The translations under genes and the position numbers were made by a program. Below the pieces are notes generated by a model that had not been told where the DNA came from, did not search any database, and worked only from the letters and a program-made list of their open reading frames with translations. Positions 4,069 through 53,324 of a DNA stretch of 64,000 nucleotides are shown piece after piece (within the stretch, counting starts at the first letter, position 1; every line of letters begins with the position of its first letter). Where the stretch lies: the NCBI RefSeq assembly GCF_029211225.1, contig NZ_JARGEM010000003.1, forward strand, positions 124,001-188,000. Direction: 5' to 3'. This stretch comes from Antiquaquibacter metalliresistens. Its GTDB lineage: Bacteria > Actinomycetota > Actinomycetes > Actinomycetales > Microbacteriaceae.

Positions 4069-4150
4069 CTCCACCAATGCGGAGGACGACACGCCGGCGG
4101 CTCGCTCCCGGCGCGGGATGCCCGGCGCGCCGTCCTCCGCATTGGTGGAG
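4069..4150 (+). repeat. dispersed palindromic repeat, copy A (tsf-pyrH gap)
   Basis: A perfect 20-bp inverted repeat has the left arm CTCCACCAATGCGGAGGACG (4069-4088) and its complement at 4131-4150. The stem extends inward another 9 bp with two mismatches (ACACGCCGG at 4089-4097 against CCGGCGCGC at 4122-4130), leaving a 24-nt loop. The same arms, GGAGGAYGACACGCCG on the left and CGGCGCGCCRTCCTCCG on the right, recur in the same orientation at 52254-52325 and 53249-53324. It looks like a REP- or MITE-like element. A 7-bp direct repeat CTGCCCG lies flush on the left (4062-4068) and 6 nt beyond the right arm (4157-4163). Confidence 0.85.
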
Positions 4151-28961: not shown

Positions 28962-31900
28962 GTGTACCTGAAGAGCCTGACCCTGAAGGGGTTCAAGTCC
29001 TTCGCGCAACCGACGACCTTCGCCTTCGAGCAGGGTGTCACGTGCGTGGTCGGGCCCAACGGCTCCGGCAAGTCGAATGTCGTGGATGCCCTCGCCTGGG
29101 TCATGGGCGAGCAGGGGGCCAAGACCCTCCGCGGCGGCAAGATGGAAGACGTCATCTTCGCGGGCACCGCCACGAAGGGACCGCTCGGCCGAGCCGAGGT
29201 CATCCTCACCATCGACAACTCCGACGGCGCGCTGCCGATCGAGTACACCGAGGTCACGATCAGCCGCACGCTGTTCCGCAACGGCGGCAGCGAGTACGCG
29301 ATCAACGGCGAGCAATGCCGCCTGCTCGACGTGCAGGAGCTGCTCTCCGACAGCGGTCTCGGCCGGGAGATGCACGTGATCGTGGGCCAGGGGCAGCTGG
29401 ATGCGGTGCTGCACGCGAGCCCCGAGGACCGGCGCGGCTTCATCGAGGAGGCCGCGGGCATCCTCAAGCACCGTCGTCGCAAAGAGAAGACCATCCGCAA
29501 GCTCGATGCGATGCAGGCGAACCTCACCCGCCTCAGCGACCTCGCGGGGGAGATCCGTCGCCAGCTCAAGCCCCTCGGCGCGCAGGCGGAGATCGCCAAG
29601 GAGGCCGCGTCGATCGCCGCGATCGTGCGGGATGCCCGCGCCCGCCTGCTCGCGGACGAGGTCGTCGAACTGCGCGCCGCCATCACCGACTTCAGCCGCA
29701 GCGAGTCGGAGCGCAAGACGGAGCGCATCGTGCTGCAGGAGCAGCTCGATCAGGCCAAGCTGCGCGAGGGCCGGCTCGAGCAGGCCCAGGTCGGGGATGC
29801 CGTGGATGTCGCCCGTCGCGTCGCCTTCGGTCTGGAGTCCGCCCAGGAACGGCTGCGCGGGCTCTACACCCTCGCCAACCAGCGGCTCGCCCTGCTCGGC
29901 CAGCAGAGCGACTCGCCGGCCACGGGTGCCACGATCAGCCAGGCCACGGTGCAGGAGGCGCGCGACGAGGCCGAGCGGCTCGCGGCGACCGTCGCGCAGG
30001 CGGAGGAGGCGCTCGGTGCCGCCGCCGCGGGCGTGGCGACGGCGAAGGCATCCCTCGACTCGCTCGACGAGGAGATCGCCGCGCAGAGCGCGCTCGTCTC
30101 CCGACACGACCTCGAGCTCGCCGGTCTCGCCTCCCGCGTGGAGGTGGCCCAGTCCAAGCTCGCGAGCGCGCGCGGTGAGCTGCTGCGCCAGCAGAACGCG
30201 CTCGAACAGGCGGAGCAGCGGCGTGACGCCACCCGCGCCGAGTTCGTGGCGCTCGAGGCGGAGGCCGCCACGAGCGAGGAGGGCGACGGGTCGCTCGACG
30301 CCGCCTACGAGGCCGCCGAGGAGCGGGTCACCGCACTGCAGGCCGAGATCGAGGCGCTGCGCGACGAGCTGCACGCCTCCGAGCGCGAACGGGATGCGCT
30401 CGCCGCGCGCAGCTCCGCGCTGAGCCTCGCGGTCGACCAGAAGGACGGATCGAGTGCGCTCGTCGCGGCCAAGCTCTCCGGCATCCGCGGCCTCGTCGCC
30501 GAGCACGTGAAGATCCAGCCGGGCTACGAGGCCGCCATCGCCGCGGCCCTCGGCTCACTGGCCGACGCCGTGCTCGCCGACGACCGCGACGCGGCGATCG
30601 ATGCGCTCGCGCACTCCGCGAGCAAGGACTTCGGCCGCGTCGAGGTGGTCATCGCCGAGGCGCCCAGGATCGCGGCGATCACCGCCGCCGGCGTCGTGGC
30701 GGCCGCCGAGGTCGTCACGGCCCCCGACGGCGTGCTGGGCCTGCTCGCGTCCGTGCTCATCGCCGACGACCTGGAGGCCGCGCGAGCCGCGTTCTCGCAC
30801 GCCCCGGACGATGCGACGTTCGTCACCCGCTCCGGCGACGTGCTCACCCGGTACGTGCTGCGCGGCGGCTCCGGCGCCAAGCGCTCCCGACTGGAACTCG
30901 TCGCTGAGCGCGACACGGCCACCGCGAGCCTCGCGACCGTCACGACCCAGATCGAGCGCACCCGTTTCGCGCTCGCCGAGAAGCGCGGCGCGCTCGAGAC
31001 CGCGAAGACGGATGCCGCCACCGCCCTCACCGCGCTGCGCGAGTACGACGCCGCCATCGCCGCCCAGTCCGAGCAACTCGGCCGATTCCGCATCCAGCTG
31101 GAGGCCGCGCAGGCGGAGTGGGAGCGCCTCTCCCAGGGGCTCGAGGTCACCGCCGAGAAGGTTCGCGAGGCCGAGGTCGGTCTCGAGCGGGCGAAGGCCG
31201 AGCACGATGAGGCCGCAGCCCGCCCGCGTCCCATGCTCGACGTCTCGGCACGCGATGGGGTGCTCGAGGAGGTCGAGGTCGCGCGCTCGAAGGAGCTCGA
31301 GCTGCGCATCCAGCTGGAGACCATTCGTGAGCGCGTTCGCGCCGAACGGGCGCGCGCCGACCAGCTCGCCGAACAGCTCGTCGCGGAGCGCGAGGCGGCC
31401 GCCGAGCAGGCGCGCCTGACCGTGATCCGCAACCGCCAGGTCGCGGCGGCGAACCGGGTGATCGCGGCGCTGCCGTCCGTGCTCGACTCGATCGACCGAT
31501 CCGTCTCCCAGGCTCGTGTCGAACTGGCCTCGAAGGAGGCCGAGCGCAGCGCCCAGAACGAGGAGCTCGCGACGCTGCGTCGTGAGGAAGGCGCCCTGCG
31601 GGAGCGGCTCGCGGTGATCAGCGAGAACGTGCACGGCCTCGAGATGCAGATCTACGAGAAGAAGCTGCACCTCTCGACCCTGCTGGAACGCGCCGGCGAG
31701 GAACTCGGTCTCGTCGAGGACGTGCTCGTGGCGGAATACGGCCCCGCCGTCCCGGTGCCGGACGACGCCGCCACCCCCGCCCCTCTCACCCCTCTCGCAA
31801 CTCATGGGGCGGGCACCGACACGCCGGCATCCGCCCCCCTCGATGGCGGGTCGGATGCCGCAGACCATGAGTTGCGCGAAGCGGCGGGCGAAGCGGCGGG

Positions 31901-32648
31901 CGAAGCGGCGGGCGAAGCGGCGCGCGAAGAGGCGGGCGAAGCGGGCCGCCACGAGGGCGGCGAGGGGATGCCGAGCAAGCCCTTCGTACGCGCCGAGCAG
32001 CAGGAGCGGCTGGCCAAGGCGGAGCGCAAGCTCGCGCAGCTGGGTCGGGTCAACCCGCTCGCGCTGGAGGAGTTCGACGCGCTCGAGCAGCGCCACAAGT
32101 TCCTCACCGAGCAGCTCACCGACCTCACCAACACGCGCAAAGACCTGTTGACGATCATCGAGGAGCTCGACGAGAAGATGCAGCACATCTTCTCCGACGC
32201 CTTCGACGACACGAAGGCGGCGTTCAACGAGGTGTTCCCGGTGCTGTTCCCGGGCGGCACCGGCAGTATCCAGCTCACCGACCCCGAGAACCTGCTCACC
32301 ACGGGCATCGAGGTCACCGTGAAGCCCGCGGGCAAGAAGATCGAGCGGCTGAGTCTGCTGTCGGGCGGTGAGCGCAGCCTCGCCGCGGTCGCCCTGCTCA
32401 TCGCCATCTTCAAGGCCCGCCCCAGCCCGTTCTACATCATGGACGAGGTGGAGGCGGCGCTCGACGACGCGAACCTGGGGCGCCTGCTGACCATCTTCGA
32501 AGACCTGCGCCGCACCAGCCAGCTCATCGTGATCACGCACCAGAAGCGCACGATGGAGATCGCCGATGCCCTCTACGGCGTGAGCATGCGCGCCGATGGC
32601 ATCAGCGCCGTCGTCGGGCAGCGCGTGAACACGGAACGGGCGAGCTAG
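28962..32648 (+). CDS. smc: chromosome segregation protein SMC, with a repeat-derived insertion
   Basis: SMC ATPase, 1228 residues, the core of condensin. It folds DNA with ScpA/ScpB. The Walker A motif GPNGSGKS is at 31-38, long coiled coils follow, the hinge lies at about 505-650, and a second coiled arm leads to the signature LSGGE (1133-1137) and Walker B FYIMDE (1157-1162). Between residue 928 (after EEYGP-type sequence) and residue 1006 (PFVRAEQQ) there is a Pro/Ala/Glu-rich insertion. It is made partly of a nested DNA palindrome (31796-31876) and five in-frame 12-bp repeats encoding EAAG-like units (31878-31946). A shorter variable linker is normal here, but its composition is not. GTG 28962 starts MYLKSLTLKGFKSF. 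Confidence 0.97.
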   Translation: MYLKSLTLKGFKSFAQPTTFAFEQGVTCVVGPNGSGKSNVVDALAWVMGEQGAKTLRGGKMEDVIFAGTATKGPLGRAEVILTIDNSDGALPIEYTEVTISRTLFRNGGSEYAINGEQCRLLDVQELLSDSGLGREMHVIVGQGQLDAVLHASPEDRRGFIEEAAGILKHRRRKEKTIRKLDAMQANLTRLSDLAGEIRRQLKPLGAQAEIAKEAASIAAIVRDARARLLADEVVELRAAITDFSRSESERKTERIVLQEQLDQAKLREGRLEQAQVGDAVDVARRVAFGLESAQERLRGLYTLANQRLALLGQQSDSPATGATISQATVQEARDEAERLAATVAQAEEALGAAAAGVATAKASLDSLDEEIAAQSALVSRHDLELAGLASRVEVAQSKLASARGELLRQQNALEQAEQRRDATRAEFVALEAEAATSEEGDGSLDAAYEAAEERVTALQAEIEALRDELHASERERDALAARSSALSLAVDQKDGSSALVAAKLSGIRGLVAEHVKIQPGYEAAIAAALGSLADAVLADDRDAAIDALAHSASKDFGRVEVVIAEAPRIAAITAAGVVAAAEVVTAPDGVLGLLASVLIADDLEAARAAFSHAPDDATFVTRSGDVLTRYVLRGGSGAKRSRLELVAERDTATASLATVTTQIERTRFALAEKRGALETAKTDAATALTALREYDAAIAAQSEQLGRFRIQLEAAQAEWERLSQGLEVTAEKVREAEVGLERAKAEHDEAAARPRPMLDVSARDGVLEEVEVARSKELELRIQLETIRERVRAERARADQLAEQLVAEREAAAEQARLTVIRNRQVAAANRVIAALPSVLDSIDRSVSQARVELASKEAERSAQNEELATLRREEGALRERLAVISENVHGLEMQIYEKKLHLSTLLERAGEELGLVEDVLVAEYGPAVPVPDDAATPAPLTPLATHGAGTDTPASAPLDGGSDAADHELREAAGEAAGEAAGEAAREEAGEAGRHEGGEGMPSKPFVRAEQQERLAKAERKLAQLGRVNPLALEEFDALEQRHKFLTEQLTDLTNTRKDLLTIIEELDEKMQHIFSDAFDDTKAAFNEVFPVLFPGGTGSIQLTDPENLLTTGIEVTVKPAGKKIERLSLLSGGERSLAAVALLIAIFKARPSPFYIMDEVEAALDDANLGRLLTIFEDLRRTSQLIVITHQKRTMEIADALYGVSMRADGISAVVGQRVNTERAS
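31796..31876 (+). repeat. nested palindrome inside smc
   Basis: Outer perfect 12-bp arms are CGCAACTCATGG (31796-31807) and CCATGAGTTGCG (31865-31876). Inner perfect 9-bp arms are CGGCATCCG (31825-31833) and CGGATGCCG (31852-31860). The length (81 bp) is a multiple of three, so the reading frame is kept. The decamer GACACGCCGG just left of the inner arm also occurs in repeat copy A. Confidence 0.85.
31878..31946 (+). repeat. 12-bp tandem repeat in smc
   Basis: GAAGCGGCGGGC occurs three times exactly (31878-31913), then as GAAGCGGCGCGC and GAAGAGGCGGGC, then a 9-bp partial copy. The unit is in frame and encodes EAAG, EAAG, EAAG, EAAR, EEAG, EAG (residues about 973-995). It directly abuts the nested palindrome. 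Confidence 0.9.
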
Positions 32649-52248: not shown

Positions 52249-53175
52249 TCAAGCCATTTCGGAGGACGACACGCCGCATGAGGCCTGGTGTCGCCCCCAC
52301 GACGGCGCGCCATCCTCCGCAATGGTGGTTTGCGGAACCCGTCCACGGGGCCAGAGGTGCTCGCGTCGGGCGATCAGTTGCAGGATGCCCCGCTCGGCCC
52401 GAGCCCAGTCCAGCGTGACCTGCAGATGGCTGAGTCGAATCACGCGGTAGCCCAGGATCGCCAGCTCGAGGTCCCGCTCGCGATCCCGCTCGAACGAGCT
52501 CGGATCGGTGTGCCATCGTCGTCCGTCGATCTCGAGCACCAGGCGATCGCCGACCAGGAGATCGACACGGCCGAGGGTGCCGATTCGCACCTGTGCCCGC
52601 ACCGGGATGCCGCGGCGCCTGAGCCGGCACCGCGCGAGTGACTCCCCGCCGCTCTCGGCGGCCCCATCGATCTCGGCGAGCATCGACGGCACCGACGCAA
52701 GCGCGGACTCCACCTCCAGCCAGCTCACCGCCCCGGCGTGGAGCGCCGAGTCGATGGTCGCCACGGCATCCTCGGATGCGAGGCACGTCGCCAGCTGCTT
52801 CACCATGTCGGCGCGCGACTCGAGGGGCGAAGGATTGTCGCGCCACCGGGCGGAGCGCCAGTGCAGCACGACGCCGGGCGTGCCGACCAGTGCTCGCCCC
52901 GCGTGCTGAGGGACGGCGACATGGAGCACGTCGCTGGCCGGCGCCCACAGTCCGAGGTGGTCCGCGAGGTAGACGCAGCCGAGCCGCCCGCCCAGCCGCA
53001 CCGCGGCGACGATCTCGATCGGTGCGTCCGGGATCGCGAGCCACCCGGGACGGACCTGGACCACAGCGCCCGACGCGACCGCCGACCGCAGCCCGGCGCG
53101 AGTGAACCCCGCGCGAATGAGGGCCGAGGCTCGCGCGGCGGGTTCCGTGCTTCGGAGGTGGGCGGCGACATCCAT
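52249..53175 (-). CDS. AbiEi-like wHTH plus DUF559 (Vsr-like) nuclease protein
   Basis: A 308-residue protein. The N-terminal region (residues about 5-50, RAGFTRAGLRSAVASGAVVQ) resembles the winged-helix antitoxin domain AbiEi_4. The C-terminal region is a DUF559 endonuclease-like fold of the Vsr/PD-(D/E)xK group: GRVDLLVGDRLVLEIDGRRW with Asp and Glu-x-Asp in line, then RDRERDLELAILGYRVIRLS. Residues about 284-308 (TTIAEDGAPS...) are encoded by repeat copy B and are not part of the domain. ATG 53175 is chosen; ATGs at 53193 and 53208 are alternatives. Such genes are frequent in actinobacteria; their function is not established. No toxin gene is adjacent. Confidence 0.85.
   Translation of the reverse strand: MDVAAHLRSTEPAARASALIRAGFTRAGLRSAVASGAVVQVRPGWLAIPDAPIEIVAAVRLGGRLGCVYLADHLGLWAPASDVLHVAVPQHAGRALVGTPGVVLHWRSARWRDNPSPLESRADMVKQLATCLASEDAVATIDSALHAGAVSWLEVESALASVPSMLAEIDGAAESGGESLARCRLRRRGIPVRAQVRIGTLGRVDLLVGDRLVLEIDGRRWHTDPSSFERDRERDLELAILGYRVIRLSHLQVTLDWARAERGILQLIARREHLWPRGRVPQTTIAEDGAPSWGRHQASCGVSSSEMA
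52254..52325 (+). repeat. dispersed palindromic repeat, copy B
   Basis: The left arm CCATTTCGGAGGACGACACG (plus CCG, 52254-52276) pairs with CGGCGCGCCATCCTCCGCAATGG-type sequence at 52303-52325 (four mismatches in 23). Loop 26 nt. It is read as the last 25 codons of the minus-strand nuclease gene, whose TGA lies at 52249-52251. Same orientation as copies A and C. Confidence 0.85.
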
Positions 53176-53248: not shown

Positions 53249-53324
53249 CATTCGGGAGGATGACACGCCGGCGAGCGCGACTCGCAAGCCGCCCATCGGC
53301 GCGCCGTCCTCCGCTGTCGGATGG
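53249..53324 (+). repeat. dispersed palindromic repeat, copy C
   Basis: The left arm CCATTCGGGAGGATGACACG continues to CCGG (53249-53271). The right arm CGGCGCGCCGTCCTCCG starts at 53297, with an outer CGGATGG ending at 53324. The loop is about 26 nt. The arms match copies A and B in sequence and orientation. It lies between the nuclease start and the trmD promoter. Confidence 0.8.

Follow-up and report, generated by a model that had tools for sequence, protein, structure and literature searches.

The smc gene of the actinobacterium Antiquaquibacter metalliresistens (Microbacteriaceae) carries, in frame, an 81-bp palindromic element that is one member of a dispersed repeat family. The gene lies at 28962..32648 on the + strand of the stretch analyzed here (the window, 64,000 nucleotides of contig NZ_JARGEM010000003.1) and encodes a chromosome segregation SMC (structural maintenance of chromosomes) protein of 1228 amino acids (TIGR02168, E 9.3e-261). 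Elsewhere in the genome two members of the same family flank the gene of a DUF559-type nuclease. The reading that we favor, with moderate confidence, is that these are mobile palindromes resembling REPINs (paired repetitive extragenic palindromes, or REPs, forming hairpins), that a homing-endonuclease-like nuclease is their partner, and that the smc palindrome is a non-autonomous copy.

The element occupies positions 31796..31876, and the reading frame of smc is open through it. Its outer arms, CGCAACTCATGG at 31796..31807 (+) and the exact reverse complement CCATGAGTTGCG at 31865..31876 (-), are perfect over 12 bp; the inner arms, CGGCATCCG (31825-31833) and CGGATGCCG (31852-31860), form an inverted repeat (31825..31860) that is perfect over 9 bp. 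Sequence and coordinates are as an initial annotation of the window had given them. It had described a nested palindrome; the inner repeat belongs to the variable interior of the element and is no fixed part of it. Tandem 12-bp units (31878..31949, +) abut the right arm. Five of these had been said to encode EAAG: three do, two encode EAAR and EEAG, and a sixth, degenerate unit (EAGR) carries the array to 31949.

The palindrome sits in the linker ahead of the C-terminal head of SMC. This linker is GC-rich and highly variable among 27 genomes of the genus, and 4 of 500 synonymous-codon shuffles within it equal the inverted-repeat score of the palindrome, as one might expect of chance or low-complexity linker sequence. 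The palindrome alone is therefore suggestive, and it is the genome-wide pattern of its arm that decides. Within the window the arm (at most one mismatch) matches itself and its partner, with no third site. In the genome (3.07 Mb, 34 contigs) a search for the arm, which the initial annotation had proposed, finds 13 exact copies; the reversed-pattern control finds 0. These sites, mostly in inverted pairs, make up six elements of 79-81 bp (two of the six with a single-base change in one arm), a tandem pair of additional right arms next to one element, and a single isolated arm. With 13 copies against 0, a fixed spacing and the matched arm changes described below, chance is a vanishingly improbable source of the pattern and was rejected.

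The proposal that a repeat had been inserted in frame and tolerated, lengthening the SMC linker, is supported, the arms being a dispersed repeat of the genome itself. Among the 26 other members of the genus the A-type arm (family A, as this family is called here) is found in the smc gene of G312 only, and an insert common to all relatives was not seen; ancient protein sequence was rejected on this ground. (G numbers denote genomes of the genus, G000 being that of the window, and L numbers denote loci.) A second in-frame family A copy lies in tilS (whose start codon is uncertain), just ahead of the PP-loop domain and adjoining tandem repeats. The exact paired A pattern is confined to 1 of 299 genomes sampled from the bacterial family, namely this one. 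A scan with 11-bp arms of a named genome collection, whose scope possibly excludes this genome, returned six stretches, of which Glaciihabitans sp. RYN_57 has four, and a Salinibacterium metagenome-assembled genome (MAG) and an Actinomycetales MAG one each. A literature search for the arm GAGCAGACGCAAAA, whole or in part, found no work on repeats in the text available to it.

The two family A elements that enclose a gene do so at C23:357073-357981, outside the window. The encoded protein of 302 residues matches MTES_1575 (E 1e-9), DUF559 (E 2e-9) and, weakly, AbiEi (E 2e-4, below the Pfam cut-off); an NCBIfam search with it matched no family. The same arrangement recurs with other arms. Family B, defined by the arm TTCCGAAATGACGGA from the smc linkers of G316 and G319, has 3-40 sites (at most one mismatch) in 8 of the 27 genomes and 0-2 in the remaining 19; the reversed control finds no site. 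Five of the eight B-rich genomes have a homologous nuclease gene with a family B element on either side. Family B2 elements (arm TTCGGAAATTCAGGA) flank the nuclease gene of G315. In the Actinomycetales MAG a 70-bp element borders the nuclease gene on each side, and where the arms of one element differ from those of the other, both arms carry the change. At one locus of G300, a genome with 21 family B sites, a family B element lies beside a nuclease-gene remnant containing a stop codon (L217, G300:C13:48478-48778); this is probably a dead unit whose elements persist.

A search of the genus for such nucleases found them in 27 of 27 genomes, with 78 matches in all; the 60 that are near full length were used and 18 partial ones omitted. 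To pass the flank test, a gene had to have a palindrome within 320 bp on each side, the arms of the two matching, with a score of 9 (thresholds chosen once these loci had been given an initial inspection, and identical for the controls). It was passed by 49 of the 60 genes; with the seven that had gone into the search profile set aside, the count is 42 of 53. Exchanging flanks between genomes left 49 passes in 600 (some pairs share an arm family); shuffled flanks gave 0 in 300, random intervals 3 in 300, and open frames of the window (mechanical stop-to-stop frames, unannotated) 1 in 133. The window's own unit, described below, scored 3 and was missed, so that 49 of 60 may be an undercount. 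A unit had been expected beforehand in the Glaciihabitans genome with dispersed CGCAACTCATGCTG arms: two of its four DUF559 matches pass, one of them with CGTAACTCATGC arms at a score of 9, exactly the threshold.

Among the 49 units, arm similarity tracks nuclease similarity (Mantel r -0.78, reached by 0 of 5000 permutations, without phylogenetic correction). More telling than this joint divergence are dispersed copies with the arms of a unit in the same genome. Palindromes with arm types linked to DUF559 genes are found in the smc linkers of 8 of the 27 genomes: type A in G000 and G312, B in G316 and G319, B2 in G315, TTCTCCGGAG in G282 and G299, and AAATGCAGGA in G311. At a score of at least 10 the smc palindrome matches a unit of its own genome in 5 of the 25 genomes with passing units (G000, G282, G311, G315, G319), as in 0 of 5000 shuffles; at a score of at least 7.5 it does so in seven (G299 and G316 added; 2 of 5000 shuffles), the G316 match being to a B2 unit and weaker than that to the B units of other genomes. 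Synonymous shuffles reach the score of the smc palindrome in 0 of 500 trials each for G315, G316 and G319, in 4 for G000 and in 12 for G312.

In the SMC tree, several nodes of which are weak, G000 and G312 are not sisters, the two B genomes are, and so are the two with TTCTCCGGAG; about six insertions into the linker is thus the simplest count, with the proviso that an older linker element may have been converted in place instead of a separate insertion taking place. The smc copies of families A, B and B2 have lengths divisible by three in 5 of 5 cases (a count that takes in the sister species G316 and G319), against 12 of 49 elements elsewhere. Insertion into the linker is supported, as first proposed; the tie of the family to DUF559 and the presence of different palindromes in the same linker of other species had not been foreseen. 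In G310 and G313 (L058, L052) the linker palindromes are of the GCGTATCGAAACC type, with outer GGTTGAGTAGC/GCTACTCAACC-like arms, and G317 (L051) has another; no DUF559 unit matched them.

The anatomy of the elements was taken from a set of 54, which comprises elements at collected loci only and includes near-identical neighbors (two in L147). Arm starts are 68-70 bp apart in family A (n=15), 70-73 in B (n=25, 14 of them at 71) and 69-71 in B2 (n=9); the counts take in pairs that fall in preset windows of 66-72 and 65-76 bp, and pairs outside these exist, for example a B2 element of 97 bp in total. Matched changes in both arms number 15 and one-sided changes 16; reshuffled arms yield a mean of 2.3 matched changes and a maximum of 8 (1000 reshuffles). 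The length of the interior is kept better than its sequence, and folding z scores for interiors are -0.93 for A and -1.08 for B. An inner motif, CGACACGCCG, recurs across different arm families and is perhaps a second, putative protein-binding site; it or a near variant occurs at 4087-4096, 31817-31826 and 52267-52276 of the window, at L004 and L013, and in smc of G282 and G299. Of the 54 elements 13 adjoin short tandem duplications, compared with 33 of 1080 random positions; these duplications would fit repeated nicking with slipped repair at the element end. Complete elements at L135, L143 and L148 are adjoined, as the smc copy is, by tandem repeats of a right arm or end sequence, with periods of 16, 21 and 25 bp.

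Outside smc, 45 of 49 elements are intergenic, and convergent genes border 17 of these 45 (positions were assigned with a codon score of our own making, for which smc alone was the training set). Three lie in coding sequence (in tilS, in hrpA between the helicase domains, and in a DUF7059 methyltransferase gene) and one overlaps partially. This distribution, together with the AbiEi-like N-terminal match, is what might be seen if the nuclease-family protein acted chiefly in regulation or repression, with the palindromes serving as its operators or terminators and the dispersed copies making up a regulon instead of mobile DNA. Full palindromes on both sides of the gene, candidate catalytic residues that are kept, family B sites ranging from 0 to 40 across members of the genus, and copies within coding sequences all speak the other way, and a regulatory role of this kind is improbable.

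The candidate catalytic residues are E200, D227, E237, H244 and D253, present respectively in 60, 60, 60, 59 and 60 of 60 homologs from the genus and in 65, 65, 64, 64 and 65 of 65 from the bacterial family. A sequence profile of the protein matches the catalytic domain of the homing endonuclease I-Bth0305I (3r3p, E 2.3e-6) and also 3hrl. In a structural model of the window's DUF559 protein (two sequences; poor overall, with a mean predicted local distance difference test score, pLDDT, of 59) the C-terminal part is fair, at about 65-87 over residues 121-270, and Foldseek pairs the model with the same two structures (3r3p, E 0.003; 3hrl, E 0.018; both at probability 1.00). Judged by these matches, the nuclease has a Vsr/DUF559 domain of EDxHD type, related to I-Bth0305I, and would be expected to cut DNA; its AbiEi-like N-terminal region is possibly a candidate DNA-binding winged helix.

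A route from such an enzyme to dispersed palindromes can be proposed. The non-autonomous form would consist of two inverted arms of 12-15 bp, their starts about 70 bp apart, around an interior of kept length; the autonomous form would be a palindrome, the nuclease gene and a second palindrome. Since I-Bth0305I is reported to dimerize on a target of nearly 60 bp (the available text of PMC3943268), we propose that a nuclease dimer binds both arms. It would then cut or nick at the end of the palindrome, and repair or replication would copy the element to new places. Copies falling inside genes would survive if they were in frame at tolerant linkers.

Nuclease genes of this type extend beyond the genus. 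DUF559/AbiEi-like matches at E 1e-25 are present in 136 of 199 sampled Microbacteriaceae genomes (58 of 78 genera), and at E 1e-15 in 12 of 148 genomes of a sample of the phylum, this genome included. Units tested from other genera were 25 with loci (Glaciihabitans counted apart) and 40 chosen, one per genome, from lower rows among the matches listed; matching palindromes flank 21 of the 25, which are the top-ranked among those matches. Three genomes of one other actinobacterial family have DUF559 genes flanked by palindromes of 56-62 bp with GAGCAGACGCAAAAGCCCC-like arms (L226, L227 and L229), loci that we take to be mycobacterial from their appearance.

Several results weigh against dispersal by the nuclease, and movement itself is read from the arrangement of sequences. 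No target-site duplication was found at the ends of the 54 elements, where direct repeats of 2-9 bp are near chance level. G316, G317 and G300 have many family B sites and no intact B unit, and G312 has family A and no A unit. The joint divergence of arm and nuclease may by itself be co-inheritance of the unit. Interiors of family B2 (z +0.17) fold no better than shuffled sequence. In the smc linker the palindromes of G299, G311 and G282 are individually within reach of chance (27, 38 and 44 of 500 shuffles, the G311 figure being for an equally high-scoring repeat), so that the case for them depends on the agreement of their arms with those of units; in G310, G313 and G317 the palindromes, of another kind and with no DUF559 link, imply that another palindrome family uses the site too. 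Foldseek gave no match to the nuclease at E 0.001 or below, the best being 0.003, and the AbiEi-like part is weak (at or below the Pfam cut-off) and poorly modelled. The association also weakens with distance: 16 of the 40 lower-ranked units from other genera, among the matches listed, are flanked, and in the phylum sample 4 of the 14 matches outside this genome pass the flank test, including all three from one other family (several of the 14 are partial, so their flanks are perhaps misplaced). The nuclease-palindrome system is clear in Microbacteriaceae and thin beyond.

Some of this would suit a different history, in which something other than the nuclease (host repair, template switching or an unrecognized transposase) spreads the palindromes and the nuclease is a homing endonuclease parasitizing them, its gene inserted into or between copies. 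The nearest relative of known function is I-Bth0305I, G316, G317 and G312 contain elements for which there is no intact unit of the same type, and there is no target-site duplication; however, arm type goes with nuclease type, dispersed copies as a rule carry the same arms as the unit resident in their genome, and the sole other mover tested, the Y1 transposase RAYT (REP-associated tyrosine transposase; PF01797), has 0 matches in this genome, the one searched (5 of 14 control genomes were positive). We consider this history unlikely. MITEs (miniature inverted-repeat transposable elements) of an unrecognized DDE transposase would resemble the elements in their short inverted ends, their length of about 80 bp and their dispersal. 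The gene between the paired elements encodes a DUF559-type nuclease, and this, together with the lack of a target-site duplication in 54 elements, led to the rejection of ordinary MITEs as very improbable, within a transposase search limited to Y1/RAYT.

The window holds a second unit, of a family (E) with CGGAGGACGACACGCCG arms and elements of 60 bp. Its arm has nine single matches in the window (at most two mismatches; 1.5 expected), six of the nine falling into three pairs at 4080-4139, 52260-52319 and 53254-53313. The latter two stand on either side of a DUF559/MTES_1575 nuclease gene (52249..53175, -; start codon placed by eye), whose 3' end reads into the left element; it was this unit that the flank test missed and that was recognized by eye and pattern. 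The unit sits between rimM-like and trmD-like genes, its element at 53254..53313 lying ahead of the latter. The lone element at 4080-4139 (feature span 4069..4150), between tsf-like and pyrH-like genes, is stronger than any other inverted repeat of the window with a span of 40-125. The four gene names given for these neighborhoods are our presumption, recognized from the sequence with no search behind them.

Dispersal of palindromes by the nuclease partner, the reading preferred here, suggests an undescribed route by which small palindromes spread through bacterial genomes. Whether they constitute a new class of mobile DNA is evenly balanced: hairpin palindromes would be dispersed by a Vsr/EDxHD-type nuclease and not by an HUH, DDE, tyrosine or serine recombinase, with a spacing of about 70 bp convergent with that of REPIN/RAYT systems, a wide distribution in Microbacteriaceae and perhaps in other Actinomycetes, and repeated entry into the SMC linker. 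With palindromes tied to a nuclease unrelated to RAYT, arm and enzyme diverging together, the mover of such repeats becomes testable, and a role can be proposed for DUF559/AbiEi-like proteins. SMC, for its part, absorbs such insertions repeatedly in one linker.

In the literature searched (bioRxiv and most subscription journals lay outside its scope) no description of DUF559-linked palindromes was found in the texts available. MTES_1575 has been named as a Vsr-family nuclease domain, and the protein described here has the same Pfam domains; the string 'palindrom' occurs 0 times in the accessible part of that account (PMC3710099). I-Bth0305I, whose catalytic domain is both a sequence match and the top fold match of the nuclease, differs in that its gene is tied to a group I intron, whereas the nuclease gene here is flanked by palindromes that are also found alone. 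No intron or intein setting was found: the family A unit lies between glyS-like and dsbA-like genes, and an Rfam scan of the window, which holds the family E unit, returned no family at threshold.

Small palindromic repeats are widespread among bacteria. Those tagged with CGTC, including RPE-4 and RPE-6 of Rickettsia, are described as short palindromes that also occur inside genes and have no dedicated transposase, the linked enzyme (RAYT) being reported for the GTAG type (available portion of PMC3733652). The in-frame copies in smc, tilS, hrpA and the methyltransferase gene resemble the CGTC type in this respect; in contrast to it, an enzyme gene is linked to the palindromes here. CGTC occurs only on the other strand of the B arm, not in A or B2, and by eye the arms are not hairpins of 8-9 bp; by inspection GTAG is absent from the A, B and B2 arms on either strand. 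GI REPINs have two conserved inverted ends, their starts 71 bp apart, around a less conserved spacer of set length, with compensatory changes, mostly extragenic copies and one copy beside the cognate enzyme gene (PMC3116915, in the text available). The present elements share the fixed distance between inverted ends (about 70 bp from one arm start to the other), the compensatory arm changes, the less conserved spacer, the mostly extragenic copies and the copy by an enzyme gene, and differ in that the partner gene encodes a Vsr/DUF559 nuclease, with no Y1 transposase match in this genome. By analogy, then, the architecture works like that of a REPIN without being one, and two unrelated enzymes with the same hairpin design would, if this is true, point to a physical constraint on such replicators.

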